From positions 1-37,678 of the forward strand of contig PSPX01000010.1 of NCBI GenBank assembly GCA_004195715.1: 37,678 bases of DNA, given 5' to 3'. The position numbers and the translations under genes are program-made. This document shows positions 12,610 through 24,590 of the stretch, piece after piece (position 1 is the first letter of the stretch; each line of letters opens with the position of its first letter). Origin of the DNA: Methanobacteriota archaeon. GTDB taxonomy: Archaea; Thermoplasmatota; Poseidoniia; Poseidoniales; Thalassarchaeaceae. The notes under the pieces are model-generated. The model did no database searches. It was not told the DNA's origin and worked only from the letters and a program-made list of their open reading frames with translations.

Positions 12610-15600
12610 ATGGACGAGAACAAAGTAATGATTGGTGACAGAAAGAGGAGAAACTCCGCGATAGCAGTAGTGATGCTAATGTTGCTGAGTTCACAGATGT
12701 ACAACTTGCTAAACTTCGAGGATGAAGATCCAGAGGAGTCCGTCTGGGGTGCTGTTCCACACAGGACTGCGTACCAGCAGATGAATCAGGCCTCCGGTCC
12801 GATGTCAGGCGACAGTCAGGGGCAGCCAGCAACCGAGTTCTCCTTTGACCAAGTGAGTTTCACCGACCCGTCGTACCATGACCCCGCATCGTTCTACGGC
12901 CAGGTGTCAAACCCGGCAGCCCTCAACCTTGATGCTGGCTACGGCTTCTTCCTTGAGGAGACACAGACTGAGGACCACGACAACGACGGTATCGATGACC
13001 TGCACGACCTCGATGACGACAACGACGGAATTGTTGACCTAATCGAGCGCTTTGACGGATGCTACGGCACCGATCCCTTCGACCACGACAACGACGGCAC
13101 CTTAGATGAATTCGACTGGGATGACGACAACGACGGCATCCTCGAGGGACCTATTGACTACTCGCAGGGAGCCGATCCTAAGAACGTCAGCGCTGACCGC
13201 TTTGTAGACCCCGATACAGTTCACCCTTGGACTGGAACCCCCGTAGGAATCGGCTATCGAGTTGACCAGAACCCGATGGACCACGACAACGACGGTATCA
13301 CCGATGATGACACCGACGGCACCGGCCCAGACTCTTTTGACGAAGACGATGACAACGATGGCCGCATTGACCAGTTTAAGTGGCCGTGCGATTTTGATGG
13401 CGACGGTTTCCAGGACTACTTCGACCTCGATGACGACGGCGATGGCGTGCTGGACCTCTGGGACGAGCACCCATGGGACAGCACAATGACCCGCAATGTG
13501 ACTTCTACTGCTCCACTATGGGACGAAGCCAAGGTGTGGACAGCAGGCGCTACCACTCACAACGTGAACATCATCAGCACAGGATATACGCCTACTGATC
13601 TGAACATCAAGGCCGGCGACACTGTGGTCTGGACCAACACCGACACCACTGATCACACCGTCACCCACGATGGCCCCGCCTTCGACAGTATGATGATTTC
13701 ACCGGGTGCCTCATGGAGTTTCACTTTCACCACCGCAGGGACCTACAACTACTCCTGCATGCTTCACCCGTTGATGACCGGGACTGTCACCGTAACCTCC
13801 TCGGGAACTACTACCAACACCTATTCTAGTTTCGTAGGAGGTGTCGATTACGTGCAGCGCGAGCTCCTTTGGCATCCTAGGAATCAGACTTTCGACACGA
13901 TTATCGATGGCGATCTGGATGGCGATGGAATTCCCAACTTCATCGATCCTGATAACGACAACGATGGCACTCCCGACTCTGCCGACACCGACGACGACAA
14001 CGACGGCTTGATGGACATGTACGATGTCGACGATGACAACGACGGCATTCCGGATACATGCTATCAGGTCGACACCAATGGCGACGGTGTGGGAGACTAT
14101 CCGGTGCCATACACCAGGATAGAGATACCTGGCATAGATTGCGAGCTGGACTACGATCGGGATCTCGATGATGACAGGTACCGACCGATAGACCAGGACT
14201 ACGATTTGGTATGGGACTGGCTTGATGAGGACATGGGAGGTTCTGCAATGCCCGACAACCCCCTCGGTGGCCCTTCGATTAACCCCGACGACATCCCATT
14301 CGATCTCGACAACGACGGCATTCCCAATGAGGAAGACCCATTCATGATGTCGACCGACGATGAGGTTCAGACCTGGAACTGCCCCAGCCTCACCAACCCC
14401 AACCCGGTCAACTCGCACGAGAACTGCGTCCTGATGCGAAAATCGTACACCGGCAACAACGATTGGGACGGCGACGGCATCAACAACTGGGAGGACGTCG
14501 ACGACGACAACGACGGAATCCTCGACTGGCTCGACATCGACGAGGACTGCGATTTCGACGACGACAATGACCTCCACCTGTTGAACGGCTCGATGTTCCG
14601 TGACGACGGCCCCAACCACCTCGACACCGATATCGATGGCGACGGACTGCCGAACGACATCGACTGGGACGACGACAACGACGGACTCTCTGACTACTAC
14701 GACCCCGATGACGGCAACTGTGGTATCGTCGACTCCGATCAGACAGACCCGTTCAACAGCCAATACTACTCACACAGCGATGGCGACCCGATAGACGGCT
14801 CCGACGACGGTGACATCTACTCCCACGATGTCGCTCACTTCTTCTACTGGAACCAGACCTGGATGTTCAACCCGTTCAGCCTAGACAACAATTTCGTCCT
14901 CGACTACAACGGCTACGACAACAACAACGGGACCATAACCAACGGCAAAGTTCCCGAGATGTACTGGTATGTTCTCATGAAGTGGAGCCCATACAATGGC
15001 GACAATTACTTTGACATCGACCTCGATGGCGACTCTCTCGTCAACGGTATCGACACCGACCAAGACGGTGACGGACTGCCAGACTGGTGGGACCAAGACG
15101 AGGGCAACGACGGCGTTCTCGATGTGGACGACATCAAGATGGGTGGAACCTTCGACGATGGGACCTGCGGTTCCTCTTTGGTTTTCGCGGTTCTGCAGGG
15201 TGCAGTGGCTGAACACGCCTGCGGTCTGGCATACGCCTGGTTGTATGGATACCCCTTGCAAAGCGCTACCCGAACTCAACAGACCATCTATACTGCACCT
15301 TACAGTACTAGGCCGGACTACGAGTTCGACGAAGGCGCATACAACGGCAGTAACTCGCAGGGCCAGTGGACCTGCATCAAGAACTGCTTCTGGTTCGACT
15401 TCTTCGGAAATCAGGATGTCGGCCCCAGCGCAGCTGTCACCTACAACCAAATCAAGAACAACCGCGACTTGTGGATAGCCTACGTTGGCGTGAACTATGG
15501 CTTGTTCCAATGGAATTCCGATGGTAACGCCAACATGTTCCCAGACGAGGTAGCCGACCTACTGAACAACGACGTCGACCCCGACGACGACTGTGGGGCG

Positions 15601-18600
15601 CCTATCGCTGGTAACATGAATCCGCAGTGCATGTTCAATGACACCGCCGACCTCGATGATGACTTCGATGGAATCTACGACCATTGGGATGTTGACGATG
15701 ACAATGACGGCATATGGGACTACTTCGAAGTCGATGTTGACGACGACTGGGACGACGATGCCAGCACCGAGCCGGATGGCTCATTCTTCATCGGCACTAA
15801 CTGCGAGGACAACGACGACGATGGCACCGACACCGATCCCGACGGCGACGGCTGGTTCCAAGCGGTCTGGGATAAGGGAGTTCTAGGACAGGGACTGCTG
15901 CACCCGAAGTACTACGATGTTGACAATGACAACGATGGGGTCCCTGATGGAGAGGATCCTGATGACGACAACAATGGTCTCTTAGACGTTGCTCAGGAGC
16001 TGCTTTGCTTCACCGGCGAGGAGCAGTCACCGTGGGACCACGACGATGATGGGGTCCTTGACTGGGCTGACGACGACTGGGATGGCGATGGACTGGTCAA
16101 CACCCTCGAGCTGGCTTCTGCCACACCGTGGATTACCCCTTGGGACCACGACAACGATGGCCTGAGAGACGACGTCGACCTCGACGACGACTCCGATGGC
16201 ATGCTCGACGAGGACGAGGTCATGCTATGGCCATCGAGGTTTAACAGTGAGTCGACGAACCCGTGGGACCACGACGACTTTGGCGACGGTTCTGGCATAT
16301 CCAATCCTTCGGACCCCAATACTGGCCCCGACGCGAGAGACCAGGACGACGACGCCGACAACCGCACTGATCTGGACTGGGATCACCTTGAGGAGGGCTG
16401 GACATCCGACAACTGCACCAACGGTGCTGAGTCCAGCGACTGGGACCACGACAACGATTGCATCCCCGACGAAGACGACAAGATACCCACTAGGATATCG
16501 ATGACTGTACCAGAGGTTCTGTGGCTCGACAACCGCTTCCCAGCGAAGTTCAATGGGACGGTGAACTGGCTCGATCCGATACTAGGTGTATTCATGCCTG
16601 CATCCGACCTGCCAGTTCAGGTCCACATAGAGTGGTCAAGAAACGGAACTTCGGCAGTAGAAACGGTAAACGTTCTAACTAATCAGGACGGCGACTTCGT
16701 AGTCGGGCAATTCCTGTTCCCCGAAGATATCCACGTCGGTGACAACACTACCTACGTGGTTTACGCTGAGGTCACAGAGATGTTCGTGCACGACGGTTCC
16801 ACAACCGAGCCCGTACCGGTTGAAGTGCGGGCCAACACCACCATCGATTATGTCGCATGGACTTACTTTCGTAGCGACGAACAACCTCTCTTCGTCGACT
16901 TCAAGGTACACTATACTGCTGATTGGGAGCGCGGCATCTTTGGCAACAGACTGTCCCATGCCCCGGTCTCATTCACCATCAGCGGCGGCATCTTTGGTAA
17001 CCACACCCACCCCACTGTGTTCGACGGCTACGGCTACGGTCACAGGGCGGATGTGGGCGGATGGGTCTCACTGACCTTCGTGCAAACGAGCGGCTCCCAG
17101 GGCGTCTGGAAGCAGGTGCGGTGGAACTCGACCATGGACAATGGAGTTGGTAAGGTTCCTGGTGGCTATCAAGAGATTGTATGGGATAACTTCTCCAAGG
17201 CCCACAACGTCATCGGGCGCTACAACTACACCAACACCAGTCTGCCGATAGGGGACTACGCCTTCGTCGGATACTCTAGGCCGGACCTTGGTGCTGAGTG
17301 GCCGTGGCCTTTCCTAGAGGGGGATAACACAGACAGCTTCGCCATACGCTCCATGCATCGGATGTACGTCGAGGCCGATATCATCACTCCTTCTATTCGA
17401 CCGGTTTACTTCTGGGACTCAACTCAATTCACCGGCTCCTCCTTTGGGGCTTGGAGGGCGCTGTTCCACACCCCCTCCCTGGCCAACGCCGGCATAGATT
17501 ACGCTGATGCCAGCCTAGGTAAGCCGTACGCCATGCAGTGGGATGGAACCCCAGGAGGACTGACCGGCCAGGCGGCCACGCTACGCCCGTTCCTCAATTC
17601 GAACGGTACTCACTGGTTCATCTCAATGCAGAACGGAGGCGATTTCAATGTGCCACCATGCGGTCCCGTGGATCCACTCGACCCCGACAGCGCCATCCGC
17701 TGCGAGATCGTGCCTGAGATGTTCACAGGTGAGGAGTTCAGAGTCATAGGAACAGTCTGGAACCGTACTATGACCGCTTGGCCGCACGACCCGATGGCTC
17801 TGCAGATCGACGTCGATCACAACGGCGTCTTCGCGGGCTCTCAGGAGACAGGTTTCGCCCGTGTGCCTCAGATGGTAAATGGAGAAGCCACCTTCGACTA
17901 CAACTGGACATGGTACTCACAGTACTCAGCCGGAGTCTTTGGCATCCGCGCCGACTTCACTAATTCGAACTACTATTTCACGGGCAATCAGACTGCGGTG
18001 CTGGCACCTACCGGGGCATACGCCAACGTCTCCGTAATCGGAACCACCGACTTCCAACTGAACAATATCCCCCGCCTCTACCGCGGACAGAACACCACAA
18101 TTGAGGCGAGGCTGATAGACAATGCGTACCAACCGGTCCGTGATGCTCCCGTCAACTTCACTTGGTCTGCCGACGGCACCAACGACCTCGCTGTGACCGA
18201 CCACAACGGGGTTTTCTCGGTCAACCTGACCATCGACAAGCAGCACGAGCTCGGTAACTTCACTCTAAGTTACTCTTACCCGGGCGACCCGATACGACAG
18301 GGCAGCTCTTCAGAGATCCATCTATGGGTGGTCTCTAGGACCCTAGTAACGCTACAGAGCGCTACATCAGGCGCCATGAGCAGCGGCGACATCTGGGAGT
18401 TCTCGGGACAGATTACCGATGACAACCGCACTCCTGACCCGACCGTATTCGACGCTGGACAGGCTCTCGATGGATGCGGCGACAACGGTGGCGAGGTACT
18501 TATCATCTTCGAAGGAACCGACTTCGAGGATCGCACTCACCGCCAGATAGTTGAAATCGCCTGTCCTAGCGCCGGCTCGATTCACCACGACATCACGCTC

Positions 18601-20601
18601 GATCCGCAGTTGCTGAGGGACGACCCCGAATCTTTCCTTCCGGATGGTTTCGGACCGGTCAATGTCATACTGCGGTTCGGTGAAAATCTGCCGCACGAGG
18701 GTTGCGAACTCCTAGATGACGACATGCTTAGGACATCTGGGGCATGGGATCCGTGTTCACAGATCCTCAACAGCGAGCATTTCCGCAAGGTGCTGCAGTT
18801 CAACGCGCAGGGATTCTACCTACTCGGGCGAACAAACCTCGTGGTGGATGATCAGATTGTCTACACCTCCGAGATTGACCAGACCACTGGCCAGCCTATC
18901 GACAAGCCAATGATAGTCACTGGCCAGTTGCTCGATGAACTGGGGGGCAACCTTTCGCACAGGGCCATCCGCATCGAGTATCAAATGCTCAACATGGAGA
19001 CAGGTAGCCAAGTCTGCATACCGGGCACCACAGACAACGACGGCTTCTTCGAAATCATCTGTCCGTTGTCGGGCGTCGAGGCTGGTCAAGCCATGGTGAC
19101 AATATCTTATGATCCCTACGAGAGTCTCGATAACTGGCGCTACAAGCCTACGAACATTACCAAGATCTTCCCTGTGTTCTCCAATTCGACAATGCTGCTG
19201 GAGGAAGTCGGTCCTTTCAGAACCGATGTGGACACCTACACCTTCGCCAACGGCTCTGTGTTCCCTGTACTTTACCTCAAGGAATCATTCCACGTCGAAG
19301 CCCTGCTCACACAGACCAACGGCAACCCGATTGGTGGCAAATGCCTCAATATCTACCTCGACCCACTGTTCAACACACGACCGATCGCCACCGCCACAAC
19401 GATGGACGGAACCGGCGAGGTAGAGTGGTTCTCGGGCGACCCCGAGGACAACCCCAGCAGACGAGGGGTCGAACCCAACGGCGAACAGTTGGAGGGCTTT
19501 AGGACAGTACGTGTGGCCTACGAGCCCGACAAGGAACTGCCGGGGGGATGCCGGGCCGAGACCACCCCAGTGGTCAATGGCTCCTACATGGACATCGAGG
19601 TCCTAGTGCGCAGCCGTGTAGATATCCTACTGAAGGACCACTGGGCAAGCTCGGTGGGCTACCAACCGGGGGACGATATCACAGGCGCCGTGACAATTTT
19701 GCGTGACCGACTCGACCTCTCGGTAGAAGGCGAGACGGTGATATTCACCTTCCAGTACTGGAATGGCACGGGCTGGATTACTGGCTTCCCTCCTGAGTAC
19801 GCCGTTACCAACGAACAGGGTACTGCCAACTTTACCTGGCCTGGAGAGGGCTATTCAGGAGAGAACGTGCCCGGTGAGATAGATTGCGCAGCCGGAGGGC
19901 CCTGTGTCCAGAACGGCAAATGGAGGGTGCTGGTACACTTCCAGGAATCGCCGTTCTACGTCGAGGAGTTCCTCAATAGCACTCCCACCATCAAACTCGG
20001 AGACGAACTGGTGAAGCAGCAGACCAGTTTCTTCACGGCCAGAGTTACAGTTGTGCTTCTCATCGCAGTATCGTTTGCGCTGCTCATCGGCGTAATCATG
20101 TATCGCAACTACGCTGAGCGCCGACGCATCGAGATCATCCGCGGCATACTGACCGACTCACTGATGTCACTCAAGGCCTCGAATGACTACATCCAGACCA
20201 TCTTCAACTGCTACAAGGACCTAGTGAGATTCTTCAGGTCCAGAGGAGCGATGAAGAAGGTCTACGAGACGACTAGGGAGTTCGAGGACGCAATCAGCTC
20301 AATGCTCGGAGGGATAGCGTCTCCGGAAGACCTTGACGAATTCTTCTCTATCTTTGAAGAGGCGCGATACTCCGATCACGAGATCGGTGCCGATCAGCGC
20401 GACAGGGCCATAGCAACCCTACAGTCGATCGTGAATCACCTGACCGCATCGTTGGGTGACTCGATGCTGAATAGGGCGTACTCGAATGAATCTGGCCTGT
20501 ATGGCACCATCACCAAGGCCGGCGAGTTCGTAGACTCTGAGGGCCAGATCCGTATCGCCGGTATTGACGAGGAAAACCAGAACGACGACTTCCGAATCTG
20601 A
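12610..20601 (+). CDS. Giant surface protein: thrombospondin type 3 arrays, cupredoxin domain, Ig-like repeats, DUF4129-like tail
   Basis: 2663 residues. Residues 17-34 form a hydrophobic export segment. Residues about 122-285 and 434-1292 are Asp-rich thrombospondin type 3 repeats (D-x-D-N-D-G-I/x-x-D), which bind Ca2+ and make a stiff rod. Between them, residues 317-398 form a type I copper domain with ligands H349, C383, H386 and M389; the C-x2-H-x2-M loop is of amicyanin/halocyanin type. Residues about 1295-2470 contain beta-rich Ig/carboxypeptidase-regulatory-like modules (repeated TDNDGFF, TDHNGVFSV turns) with many N-x-S/T sequons. A membrane helix at 2479-2498 is followed by basic residues and about 165 cytoplasmic residues whose YKDLVRFFRSRG and TTREFEDAI segments resemble DUF4129. 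Likely a cell-envelope adhesin or sensor. It is transcribed alone. ATG 12628 is an alternative start. Confidence 0.88.
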   Translation: MDENKVMIGDRKRRNSAIAVVMLMLLSSQMYNLLNFEDEDPEESVWGAVPHRTAYQQMNQASGPMSGDSQGQPATEFSFDQVSFTDPSYHDPASFYGQVSNPAALNLDAGYGFFLEETQTEDHDNDGIDDLHDLDDDNDGIVDLIERFDGCYGTDPFDHDNDGTLDEFDWDDDNDGILEGPIDYSQGADPKNVSADRFVDPDTVHPWTGTPVGIGYRVDQNPMDHDNDGITDDDTDGTGPDSFDEDDDNDGRIDQFKWPCDFDGDGFQDYFDLDDDGDGVLDLWDEHPWDSTMTRNVTSTAPLWDEAKVWTAGATTHNVNIISTGYTPTDLNIKAGDTVVWTNTDTTDHTVTHDGPAFDSMMISPGASWSFTFTTAGTYNYSCMLHPLMTGTVTVTSSGTTTNTYSSFVGGVDYVQRELLWHPRNQTFDTIIDGDLDGDGIPNFIDPDNDNDGTPDSADTDDDNDGLMDMYDVDDDNDGIPDTCYQVDTNGDGVGDYPVPYTRIEIPGIDCELDYDRDLDDDRYRPIDQDYDLVWDWLDEDMGGSAMPDNPLGGPSINPDDIPFDLDNDGIPNEEDPFMMSTDDEVQTWNCPSLTNPNPVNSHENCVLMRKSYTGNNDWDGDGINNWEDVDDDNDGILDWLDIDEDCDFDDDNDLHLLNGSMFRDDGPNHLDTDIDGDGLPNDIDWDDDNDGLSDYYDPDDGNCGIVDSDQTDPFNSQYYSHSDGDPIDGSDDGDIYSHDVAHFFYWNQTWMFNPFSLDNNFVLDYNGYDNNNGTITNGKVPEMYWYVLMKWSPYNGDNYFDIDLDGDSLVNGIDTDQDGDGLPDWWDQDEGNDGVLDVDDIKMGGTFDDGTCGSSLVFAVLQGAVAEHACGLAYAWLYGYPLQSATRTQQTIYTAPYSTRPDYEFDEGAYNGSNSQGQWTCIKNCFWFDFFGNQDVGPSAAVTYNQIKNNRDLWIAYVGVNYGLFQWNSDGNANMFPDEVADLLNNDVDPDDDCGAPIAGNMNPQCMFNDTADLDDDFDGIYDHWDVDDDNDGIWDYFEVDVDDDWDDDASTEPDGSFFIGTNCEDNDDDGTDTDPDGDGWFQAVWDKGVLGQGLLHPKYYDVDNDNDGVPDGEDPDDDNNGLLDVAQELLCFTGEEQSPWDHDDDGVLDWADDDWDGDGLVNTLELASATPWITPWDHDNDGLRDDVDLDDDSDGMLDEDEVMLWPSRFNSESTNPWDHDDFGDGSGISNPSDPNTGPDARDQDDDADNRTDLDWDHLEEGWTSDNCTNGAESSDWDHDNDCIPDEDDKIPTRISMTVPEVLWLDNRFPAKFNGTVNWLDPILGVFMPASDLPVQVHIEWSRNGTSAVETVNVLTNQDGDFVVGQFLFPEDIHVGDNTTYVVYAEVTEMFVHDGSTTEPVPVEVRANTTIDYVAWTYFRSDEQPLFVDFKVHYTADWERGIFGNRLSHAPVSFTISGGIFGNHTHPTVFDGYGYGHRADVGGWVSLTFVQTSGSQGVWKQVRWNSTMDNGVGKVPGGYQEIVWDNFSKAHNVIGRYNYTNTSLPIGDYAFVGYSRPDLGAEWPWPFLEGDNTDSFAIRSMHRMYVEADIITPSIRPVYFWDSTQFTGSSFGAWRALFHTPSLANAGIDYADASLGKPYAMQWDGTPGGLTGQAATLRPFLNSNGTHWFISMQNGGDFNVPPCGPVDPLDPDSAIRCEIVPEMFTGEEFRVIGTVWNRTMTAWPHDPMALQIDVDHNGVFAGSQETGFARVPQMVNGEATFDYNWTWYSQYSAGVFGIRADFTNSNYYFTGNQTAVLAPTGAYANVSVIGTTDFQLNNIPRLYRGQNTTIEARLIDNAYQPVRDAPVNFTWSADGTNDLAVTDHNGVFSVNLTIDKQHELGNFTLSYSYPGDPIRQGSSSEIHLWVVSRTLVTLQSATSGAMSSGDIWEFSGQITDDNRTPDPTVFDAGQALDGCGDNGGEVLIIFEGTDFEDRTHRQIVEIACPSAGSIHHDITLDPQLLRDDPESFLPDGFGPVNVILRFGENLPHEGCELLDDDMLRTSGAWDPCSQILNSEHFRKVLQFNAQGFYLLGRTNLVVDDQIVYTSEIDQTTGQPIDKPMIVTGQLLDELGGNLSHRAIRIEYQMLNMETGSQVCIPGTTDNDGFFEIICPLSGVEAGQAMVTISYDPYESLDNWRYKPTNITKIFPVFSNSTMLLEEVGPFRTDVDTYTFANGSVFPVLYLKESFHVEALLTQTNGNPIGGKCLNIYLDPLFNTRPIATATTMDGTGEVEWFSGDPEDNPSRRGVEPNGEQLEGFRTVRVAYEPDKELPGGCRAETTPVVNGSYMDIEVLVRSRVDILLKDHWASSVGYQPGDDITGAVTILRDRLDLSVEGETVIFTFQYWNGTGWITGFPPEYAVTNEQGTANFTWPGEGYSGENVPGEIDCAAGGPCVQNGKWRVLVHFQESPFYVEEFLNSTPTIKLGDELVKQQTSFFTARVTVVLLIAVSFALLIGVIMYRNYAERRRIEIIRGILTDSLMSLKASNDYIQTIFNCYKDLVRFFRSRGAMKKVYETTREFEDAISSMLGGIASPEDLDEFFSIFEEARYSDHEIGADQRDRAIATLQSIVNHLTASLGDSMLNRAYSNESGLYGTITKAGEFVDSEGQIRIAGIDEENQNDDFRI
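12973..13464 (+). repeat. Thrombospondin type 3 repeat array 1 (coding)
   Basis: Imperfect Asp-rich coding repeats with the core D-x-D-N-D-G, reiterating a gacgacaacgacgg-like DNA word. About eight copies of the motif, each expected to coordinate Ca2+. Interrupted downstream by the cupredoxin domain. Confidence 0.8.
13909..16485 (+). repeat. Thrombospondin type 3 repeat array 2 (coding)
   Basis: Longer continuation of the Asp-rich Ca2+-binding repeats after the cupredoxin domain, with twenty or so D-x-D-G cores. It is broken up by non-repeat inserts, including a Cys-containing segment around 15150-15420. The DNA repetition creates long spurious antisense frames. Confidence 0.78.
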
Positions 20602-22451: not shown

Positions 22452-24590
22452 ATGGCAGCGGAGCGGCCTAGCGAGGGCGGCGAGCAGACGCTCGTGGATT
22501 GGCTGGTCGAGCAGATAGCACATCACTCGCACCTTTACTACAACGAGGCTAGCCCTGAGATAACGGACGCCGAGTTCGACAAGCTCTGGAACGAATTGAG
22601 CAGACTGGCCCCTGAGCACCCTCAACTGAAGAAGGTCGGCTCGGACCCCCCTCCCGGCTCTGTCAAGGTGGAGCACCTGTTCGCGATGCGCAGTCTCAAC
22701 AAGTCGAGCACCGAGGAAGAGGTCACGCACTTCGTCGCTGAGACCACCGCTCAGAGCCGCAGGTTCGTGTGCCAGCCCAAGTTGGACGGCTCCGCGCTGT
22801 CACTGGAGTATCGTAGGGGCCGCTTGGTCAGAGCAGCTACCAGGGGCAGCGGGACTCGCGGCGAGGACGTAACAGCAAACGCCCGCAGGATCCCGAACGT
22901 CCCGGAATCCCTCAACTGGGATGGCGACTGTCACGTCAGAGGGGAGGTGGTAATGCCGCTGCAGACTTTCAGGGAAAGCTACGCCGAGGTAGCGCCGAAT
23001 CCTAGGAACCTTGCTGCCGGCTCACTCAGACAGAAGCACGTCGAGGCTGGCAAGGGCAGAGCCGAGGACCTCGTCTTTCGCGCTTACGGCGCTGAGTTCC
23101 CAACTATCAGCTCAAGGCACCCCGACAGTCCCGAGCCACCAGTGTTCGAGTACGATTCCGAGGTTATTTCATGGTTGCAGACGGAAGGCATCGAGGTGGC
23201 CGGGAACGAGGTCGTAGGTGGCTCCGACGATGAATCAACCAGTGCGGCGATAATGTCGGTTGTGCAGAGGTGGACCGAGGACAGGGACGCCGTTGATTGG
23301 GAGATTGATGGCGTCGTTATCAAACTCGACAGGCTGGTCAAGCGCGAACTCCTCGGCATGACCGCGCACCACCCACGTTGGGCCCTAGCCTGGAAGTTTC
23401 CTCCAGAGGAGGCTACCACCGTGCTCATGGGTGTCGAATGGCAGACCGGGAGGACAGGGAACGTGACCCCTGTCTCTAGAGTGGCTCCAGTAAGGGTATC
23501 GGGAGTGACTGTGGAGAACACCACTCTGCACAACAAGGGCGAGGTGGAGCGACTCGAGATTATGGTCGCAGACAAAGTCAGGGTGGTTCGCAGAGGAGAT
23601 GTCATCCCCAAAATCGTGGAAGTGCTCGGACCTGCGAGCGTTACCGATATCGAAGGACGGCGGCACTCTGACGGAAACCCGTTCACAGAGACCCTGCCTG
23701 AGCGCCAACCCGTCACTATTCCCGTCGAGTGTCCGCGCTGCGCAACTCCGCTGATTGAGGATGGGGCCTTCATCCGATGCACAAACCTCGATTGCCCATC
23801 AAGACTAGAGAGGACAATTCTGTACTGGTGTAGGCACCTCGAGATGGACGGGATAGGTGAGAAACTGGCCGAACAACTCTGTGCCACCGGGCTCGTCAGG
23901 ACGTTGGCCGACCTGTACAAGCTCACCCATCAGGACATCGTGGGATTGGAAAGGATGGGAGATAGGTCAGCGAGTAACGTAATCGATGAATTGGAGGCCA
24001 GCCGGAGTATGACTCTCAGCACTTTCCTCGCAGCACTAGGCCTGCCGAGGATAGGACCTGAGATAGCCTCAGTCATCGCGACTGAGGTAGGCAGCCTCGA
24101 AGTTCTTCTCGAACTAGTCAAGAAGAAAGACGAGGAAGCGGGCATGGATGCTGATGATAAACCGAACAAGTACAACTCAGCGATTGACAGGCTCATTGCC
24201 ATCGAGAGGGTAGGAGAGACGGTCGCTAGACTCCTCCTCGATGGTCTGGACGCCCGTTCGACCATAGTGGGAGAACTCAGCCTAGAACTTGACATCACCG
24301 AGGAGTCGCCCAAGCAGGAGGATGGCCCACTGCTGGGCCAGACATTCTGCATCACCGGGGCCCTCAGTCGCCCGAGGAAAGAGGTCGCCCTGTCCATCAA
24401 GGCTGAGGGTGGTAAGGTGGTTTCGTCAGTATCTGGGAAGTTGGATTACCTAGTTGCAGGGGAATCTGCAGGTTCCAAACTCGACAAGGCTAACAGACTC
24501 GGTGTCGAGATCCTTTCTGAGGTCGAACTAGCCGAAATGATAGGGATGGATCATCCTGCTGAGCGCCAGAGTTCGCTGGGCGACTTCTAA
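22452..24590 (+). CDS. ligA: NAD-dependent DNA ligase LigA
   Basis: 712 residues, slightly longer than bacterial LigA (about 670). Domain Ia with the YYNEASPEITDAEFDKL NMN/NAD-binding Tyr pair; adenylation motif KLDG with catalytic K110; DWEIDGVVIK and WALAWKFPPEEA motifs (III-V); OB-fold with TGNVTPVSRVAPV; Zn finger with C427, C430, C443 and C448; helix-hairpin-helix region about 450-610; BRCT domain about 630-705 (LLGQTFCITGAL to LSEVELAEMIG). All functional elements are present, so it should seal nicks using NAD+. This is the bacterial replicative ligase; most archaea use ATP-dependent ligases, so the gene was probably acquired from bacteria. Whether an ATP-dependent ligase also exists cannot be seen. 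It overlaps the convergent PAC2 gene by 4 bp. Confidence 0.95.
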   Translation: MAAERPSEGGEQTLVDWLVEQIAHHSHLYYNEASPEITDAEFDKLWNELSRLAPEHPQLKKVGSDPPPGSVKVEHLFAMRSLNKSSTEEEVTHFVAETTAQSRRFVCQPKLDGSALSLEYRRGRLVRAATRGSGTRGEDVTANARRIPNVPESLNWDGDCHVRGEVVMPLQTFRESYAEVAPNPRNLAAGSLRQKHVEAGKGRAEDLVFRAYGAEFPTISSRHPDSPEPPVFEYDSEVISWLQTEGIEVAGNEVVGGSDDESTSAAIMSVVQRWTEDRDAVDWEIDGVVIKLDRLVKRELLGMTAHHPRWALAWKFPPEEATTVLMGVEWQTGRTGNVTPVSRVAPVRVSGVTVENTTLHNKGEVERLEIMVADKVRVVRRGDVIPKIVEVLGPASVTDIEGRRHSDGNPFTETLPERQPVTIPVECPRCATPLIEDGAFIRCTNLDCPSRLERTILYWCRHLEMDGIGEKLAEQLCATGLVRTLADLYKLTHQDIVGLERMGDRSASNVIDELEASRSMTLSTFLAALGLPRIGPEIASVIATEVGSLEVLLELVKKKDEEAGMDADDKPNKYNSAIDRLIAIERVGETVARLLLDGLDARSTIVGELSLELDITEESPKQEDGPLLGQTFCITGALSRPRKEVALSIKAEGGKVVSSVSGKLDYLVAGESAGSKLDKANRLGVEILSEVELAEMIGMDHPAERQSSLGDF

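Follow-up and report, generated by a model that had tools for sequence, protein, structure and literature searches.

Architecture of the giant surface protein

The window (the whole stretch of DNA analysed here, 37,678 nucleotides from a Thalassarchaeaceae archaeon, contig PSPX01000010.1) carries on its forward strand, at 12610–20601, a reading frame that stays open over 2663 aa and encodes a large surface protein. From the N-terminus, the order of its parts is a hydrophobic segment, a Ca-loop array, a cupredoxin domain, a second Ca-loop region, a long stalk containing one or more Ig-like domains, a transmembrane (TM) helix and a DUF4129 domain (Pfam, aa 2534–2604). With DUF4129 lying C-terminal to the TM helix, the product is a DUF4129-tailed membrane protein. 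Its features are the following:

12610–20601 (+): whole ORF of the 2663-aa surface protein (ORF and translation, family-wide orthologues, L18e neighbour)
12652–12711 (+): N-terminal hydrophobic segment, about aa 15–34 (hydropathy barely above threshold; present in orthologues)
12973–13446 (+): first Asp-rich Ca-loop array, aa 122–279 (10 of the 36 D.[DN].DG motifs)
13543–13845 (+): putatively exchangeable cassette, aa 312–412 (94-copy alignment; empty site in other Poseidoniales)
13552–13794 (+): predicted cupredoxin domain proper, aa 315–395 (Pfam, NCBIfam, AlphaFold2, Foldseek, VIA, PDB sequence search)
13654–13656 (+): H349, first copper ligand (aligned with the amicyanin histidine)
13756–13758 (+): C383, copper ligand (replaced by D, E or N in all but 2 of the 43 ligandless orthologues)
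13765–13767 (+): H386, copper ligand (variable among ligandless orthologues)
13774–13776 (+): M389, axial copper ligand (variable among ligandless orthologues)
13906–16200 (+): second Asp-rich Ca-loop region, aa 433–1197 (26 of the 36 motifs)
18091–18243 (+): Ig-like (Big_1) domain of the stalk, aa 1828–1878 (Pfam Big_1, above cut-off in a scan of the stalk by itself)
20035–20103 (+): C-terminal TM helix, about aa 2476–2498 (hydropathy)
20209–20421 (+): DUF4129 domain, C-terminal to the TM helix and presumably in the cytoplasm (Pfam)

The D.[DN].DG motif occurs 36 times, at aa 122–274 and 433–1192 and nowhere in between, while shuffled sequences contained 1.0 match on average and 4 at most. 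Thus, arrays of DxDxDG Ca-binding loops do flank the cupredoxin on both sides, as the original prediction had it. The Pfam thrombospondin-3 models matched neither array at E<=5, although short low-complexity repeats of this kind are easily missed, so it is the motif by itself that carries the 'type 3' label. AlphaFold2 predicted the arrays around the cupredoxin with low confidence, both in the window's protein and in a ligandless orthologue.

Hydropathy revealed a single strong TM helix at about aa 2476–2498, which supports the proposed C-terminal anchor. The conserved hydrophobic segment at the N-terminus could be either a signal peptide or another membrane anchor, so the cupredoxin may or may not be held far from the membrane.

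Elsewhere in the window, an NAD-dependent DNA ligase gene (22452–24590, +) adjoins the ribosomal protein genes L18e, L13 and S9. The same genome encodes a second large DUF4129-tailed protein (G000:C35:88935-89141, minus strand), which aligns with the window's protein at the C-terminal end only.

A type-1 cupredoxin between the Ca-loop arrays

As judged from profile matches and structure modelling, aa 315–395 are a type-1 (amicyanin/plastocyanin-like) cupredoxin lying between two Asp-rich Ca-loop arrays. Two Pfam models exceeded their cut-offs, namely Cupredoxin_1 (aa 311–395, 30.2 bits, cut-off 27) and Copper-bind (aa 325–395, 29.9 bits, cut-off 21.2). H349, C383, H386 and M389 were found where they had been placed originally, with the His-Cys-His-Met spacing of type-1 cupredoxins, and in the PDB sequence search the domain aligned with the histidine region and the C-x2-H-x2-M loop of amicyanin. 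The best PDB match was 9cck, the cupredoxin part of a Nitrosopumilus maritimus multicopper oxidase (E=7e-17), and amicyanins followed at about 1e-12.

Structure prediction bore out the proposed fold as well. AlphaFold2 gave pLDDT values of about 94–97 over aa 315–395 (typically about 96), and the model superimposed on the N. maritimus purple cupredoxin 5fc9 with a VIA Z of 14.9 and 1.0 Å across 81 residues. Foldseek likewise recognized a plastocyanin-type Greek-key beta-sandwich, as did VIA with Z values up to 15.1.

The domain has its fold and four ligands in common with amicyanin (MauC) and bacterial plastocyanin (VIA Z 12–15), and the short C-x2-H-x2-M loop with amicyanin. Those proteins are soluble single-domain electron carriers, whereas here the domain is a module of a 2663-aa surface protein. 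We rejected the identity of a MauC/amicyanin orthologue, as the NCBIfam amicyanin model TIGR02657 scored 47.2 bits at aa 320–395, below its curated equivalog cut-off of 110.2. The nearest solved structures by fold, 5fc9 and 9cck, are both archaeal, and 9cck is also the nearest by sequence; the former is a small protein and the latter the C-terminal cupredoxin of a multicopper oxidase, so neither sits in a Ca-loop stalk.

Related cupredoxins with intact ligands also occur in other large Poseidoniales proteins, including 4600-aa proteins, alpha-amylases and pilin-type proteins, but on different scaffolds, and the 13 non-orthologous cupredoxins that we sampled formed a group of their own in the domain tree (92/87). 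Among such proteins are predicted secreted alpha-amylases with an N-terminal cupredoxin domain (L156:1681-4749, minus strand; L051:47-1927, plus strand) and large proteins that combine an intact cupredoxin with a match to the archaeal type IV pilin N-terminal domain (L157:7157-11443 and L154:5406-19271, both minus strand). RCC1-like repeats are found in L157 as well, and L154 is a 4622-aa frame with its pilin match close to the C-terminus.

Three states of the slot

Each of the 118 Thalassarchaeaceae genomes searched had a match to the C-terminal half of the giant protein; the named records of this clade (MGIIb) are Candidatus Thalassarchaeum betae and other Thalassarchaeaceae. The ribosomal L18e gene next to the window's copy was also present in 71 fetched loci, and this conserved neighbour supports orthology. 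Thus, the protein itself is conserved and syntenic in the family. The original prediction had asked for the same architecture across Poseidoniales, and here the answer differs: in other Poseidoniales, including named Poseidoniaceae, most loci with a readable segment lack the insert.

In an alignment of 94 copies, the slot was found in three states. The complete copper site is present in 16 copies (the window's included), 43 retain the fold after loss of Cys/His/Met ligands, and 35 have no domain at all. Copper-type and ligandless copies coexist in genera g1 (8 and 2), g5 (6 and 8) and g6 (2 and 8). All 7 copies of g7 are ligandless, as are 11 of g3, in which a second, divergent copy is without the domain; g8 has 7 ligandless copies and 4 without it, and every copy of g4, g9, g10 and g11 lacks it.

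Complete ligand sets are therefore missing from 43 of the 59 domain-bearing orthologues, in addition to the 35 copies without a domain, so most orthologues have lost ligands, the outcome that the original prediction had named as its refutation. Ligand loss on this scale means that electron transfer, one of the roles first proposed, cannot be the general function of the protein family. Copper binding is likewise not a family-wide property; in the window's lineage the site is intact, and the window's domain is predicted to bind copper and may well do so.

The insert is likewise missing from most of these other Poseidoniales loci, which makes the empty slot the probable ancestral state. The scaffold tree, which is rooted at the midpoint only, is compatible with one gain within Thalassarchaeaceae and later losses in g11 and some of g8. 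This tree requires 9 changes among the three states, and in g5, g6 and g1 the ligandless copies are nested within copper-type ones. H349 and C383 are kept in all 10 g1 copies, including the two ligandless ones, which for this reason look like separate, more recent losses.

The segment also has relatives in records titled Rhodobiaceae (L227), Acidimicrobiaceae (L230) and Gammaproteobacteria (L244). The first two look like misbinned archaeal contigs, and L244 is a short weak match only.

Fold and selection in the ligandless copies

In the 43 ligandless copies, G336, D337, W341, N343, F358, F373 and G391 are invariant, and all of these except G391 are invariant in the copper-type class too. At the former copper site, C383 is replaced by D, E or N in 41 copies, and H386 and M389 by nearly any residue. 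A ligandless orthologue from g8 was modelled by AlphaFold2 with pLDDT of about 92–96 over the domain; its sandwich matches that of the window strand for strand and gives a Z of 14.2 against 5fc9. Such orthologues thus appear to combine a cupredoxin fold with the absence of copper ligands, as ephrins do.

Between close pairs, dN/dS was 0.06–0.27 in the cassette and 0.00–0.08 in the arrays and stalk, with saturated dS in some pairs, and this holds for both types of domain. As dN/dS is below 1 everywhere, the result falls short of proof for diversifying selection, and the N-terminal 100 residues of the protein evolve fast in several pairs as well. These ratios suggest that copper-type and ligandless domains are both maintained, under looser constraint than the scaffold. 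Neutral decay of the ligandless domains was judged unlikely given dN/dS, the invariant core and the predicted fold, and to call these copies structural relics is too simple, as they retain their core residues, are confidently predicted as cupredoxins and evolve under purifying selection.

Conflict between domain and scaffold trees

The domain tree unites 41 ligandless domains from g3, g5, g6, g7 and g8 in a single clade (99/94). Forcing the g5 domains together cost 43 log units (AU p=0.00014); the same constraint on g6 was marginally rejected (AU p=0.035). The domain trees are based on 91 alignment columns and contain long branches.

Identity profiles along the protein agree with this tree. 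At aa 395–425, inside the slot, the g5 ligandless copies are closer to g8 ligandless cassettes (0.65–0.70 vs. 0.19–0.44), while at aa 600–700 and 1300–1500 they are closer to g5 scaffolds (0.88 vs. 0.74 in the latter interval). Additionally, a C-terminal extension, ETSQ-S/T-LP-x-AF, is common to the ligandless cassettes of g5 and g8 and missing from the copper-type sisters in g5. This suggests horizontal exchange of the cassette among lineages.

Parallel vertical decay combined with long-branch attraction could produce a similar conflict with no exchange, and the short alignment, the long branches and the marginal g6 test all leave room for it, as shared loss could group the ligandless copies. 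The g6 ligandless copies, moreover, retain the Y-x-x-Y/F-V/I-G-G boundary seen in copper-type copies, and it is for this genus that decay is most plausible. In g5 the AU test argues against it, and the specific extension joining g5 and g8 means that ligand loss alone is insufficient to explain the grouping. On the whole, we regard decay with long-branch attraction as the less probable account of the conflict, if far from negligible.

We set aside the idea that viruses were the source or the carriers of the cassette: viral contigs searched with the 92-aa domain gave no relative, a result that shows only the lack of a match at the sensitivity used.

Stand-alone cupredoxins and a possible redox role

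In copper-type lineages, the domain could be a working redox or copper-handling site, a tethered carrier or scavenger that replaces membrane-anchored blue copper proteins; as a corollary, lineages with stand-alone blue copper proteins could lose the giant's copper site. We searched for the two common stand-alone types, fasciclin-cupredoxin fusions and halocyanin-like proteins whose C-terminus is a hydrophobic tail. The window's genome yielded no halocyanin-like gene at a meaningful E-value and no fasciclin-cupredoxin gene, and its one Pfam cupredoxin match is the giant's own domain.

Such genes are present in 2 of 13 genomes that carry a copper-type giant vs. 38 of 40 that carry a ligandless one (Fisher p=7e-8), where classes were assigned from E-value bands and inspection of representatives, in MAGs that are incomplete. 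The complete ligand sets in 8 of the 10 g1 copies also speak for a redox role, and so does a CuA-type cytochrome oxidase encoded in the window's genome. The original prediction noted no partner oxidase nearby; this is correct for the neighbourhood, but the CuA oxidase on another contig (C15) means that a possible partner exists.

On the other hand, once phylogeny is taken into account, the association comes down to about three independent contrasts, which all point the same way (sign test, p=0.25). In two g1 genomes, both an intact giant site and a stand-alone gene are missing; stand-alone genes are absent from several domain-less genomes too, and the orthologue is retained throughout, copper site or not. 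With about three independent contrasts, we treat the anti-association as a lead only, and a working redox or copper-handling site in copper-type lineages seems unlikely to us, if far from negligible. Rather more doubtful is a reading in which the slot occupant is swapped between lineages and the tethered copper form takes over surface redox or copper work where stand-alone carriers were lost.

A halocyanin and a plastocyanin, neither of which need be the giant protein, are reported among the genes with higher transcription in O1-active MGII samples (PMC9723583).

Some further observations concern these proteins. On contig C15, a cytochrome oxidase subunit I (L163:4743-7061, plus strand) has an N-terminal extension with a heme-c like CNCHG motif. 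Fasciclin-cupredoxin fusions with a C-terminal hydrophobic tail (L262:456-2030, plus strand; L263, L265, L267 and others) occur in genera g3–g9 and g11, and none was detected in g1. In G092, a genome of the window's genus, a 201-aa ORF (L164:2658-3260, minus strand) resembles a circularly permuted blue copper protein: its C/H half (MYSCTPHPPHEGF) comes first, then the half with GVTVTWVNNDSAVHTAT and after it a C-terminal hydrophobic segment, and Pfam matches the second half only. It has a 36%-identical relative in G089.

Discussion

The copper site of this blue-copper module is dispensable among orthologues, and the cassette appears to be exchangeable. We propose, with a probability of roughly 0.5, that the slot is an exchangeable outward-facing module, which holds copper in some lineages and has been put to use without it in others. 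A type-1 cupredoxin would have entered a conserved slot between the Ca-loop arrays of a membrane-anchored surface protein found family-wide in Thalassarchaeaceae. From then on, the slot would have been fast-evolving and exchangeable, existing as empty, copper-type or copper-less with the same fold. The function common to the family would be carried by the surface of the domain, on a Ca2+-stiffened stalk, in recognition, adhesion or escape from recognition, and we infer that copper is a lineage-specific extra on this shared role. What the family has in common is a conserved Ca-loop stalk that bears an optional, fast-evolving domain close to one end. Such a role of the domain's face is favoured since copper cannot be the general function of the family.

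Recognition is suggested here by analogy with ephrins, in which the cupredoxin fold was reused as a cell-surface recognition domain after loss of the copper ligands (PMC6485061). Their receptor-binding domains are a precedent for the ligandless state of the archaeal slot, with no claim of membership. Ephrins are animal proteins with a known receptor, whereas in the archaeal family copper-type and ligandless versions coexist among orthologues. Adhesion has been proposed for the thrombospondin genes reported to be widespread in Ca. Poseidoniales (PMC6461757), and Asp-rich Ca-loop arrays of adhesion-linked surface proteins are what the window's protein shares with them. The passages on these genes mention no cupredoxin insert, and the Pfam thrombospondin-3 models miss the window's protein. 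In the literature on cupredoxins, DUF4129, and giant or surface proteins of Poseidoniales/Marine Group II, we found no description of this protein or its insert.

Several observations weigh against the exchangeable module. The selection data lack any dN/dS above 1 and do not single out the slot from the first 100 residues, the domain trees are short, and the scarcity of stand-alone cupredoxins in copper-type genomes fits a redox role. A structural spacer or relic that lost its ligands through drift and has no role of its own would agree with the repeated ligand loss, the disappearance of the domain from g11 and part of g8 and its place among the most divergent parts of the protein, but it is improbable in view of dN/dS well under 1 in both classes, the invariant core and confident fold of ligandless copies, and the complete ligand sets of diverged copper-type copies.

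The exchangeable-module reading gives this family a natural series in which an orthologous cupredoxin at one site is absent, copper-type or ligandless among close species, probably with exchange between them. The switch from a metal cofactor to a bare recognition fold, known from ephrins, could thereby be studied in prokaryotes. Should copper-type giants and stand-alone cupredoxins prove to be truly anti-associated, an electron carrier would have been relocated onto a giant stalk. For these abundant ocean archaea, the slot suggests that the cell surface bears an exposed module that evolves fast.
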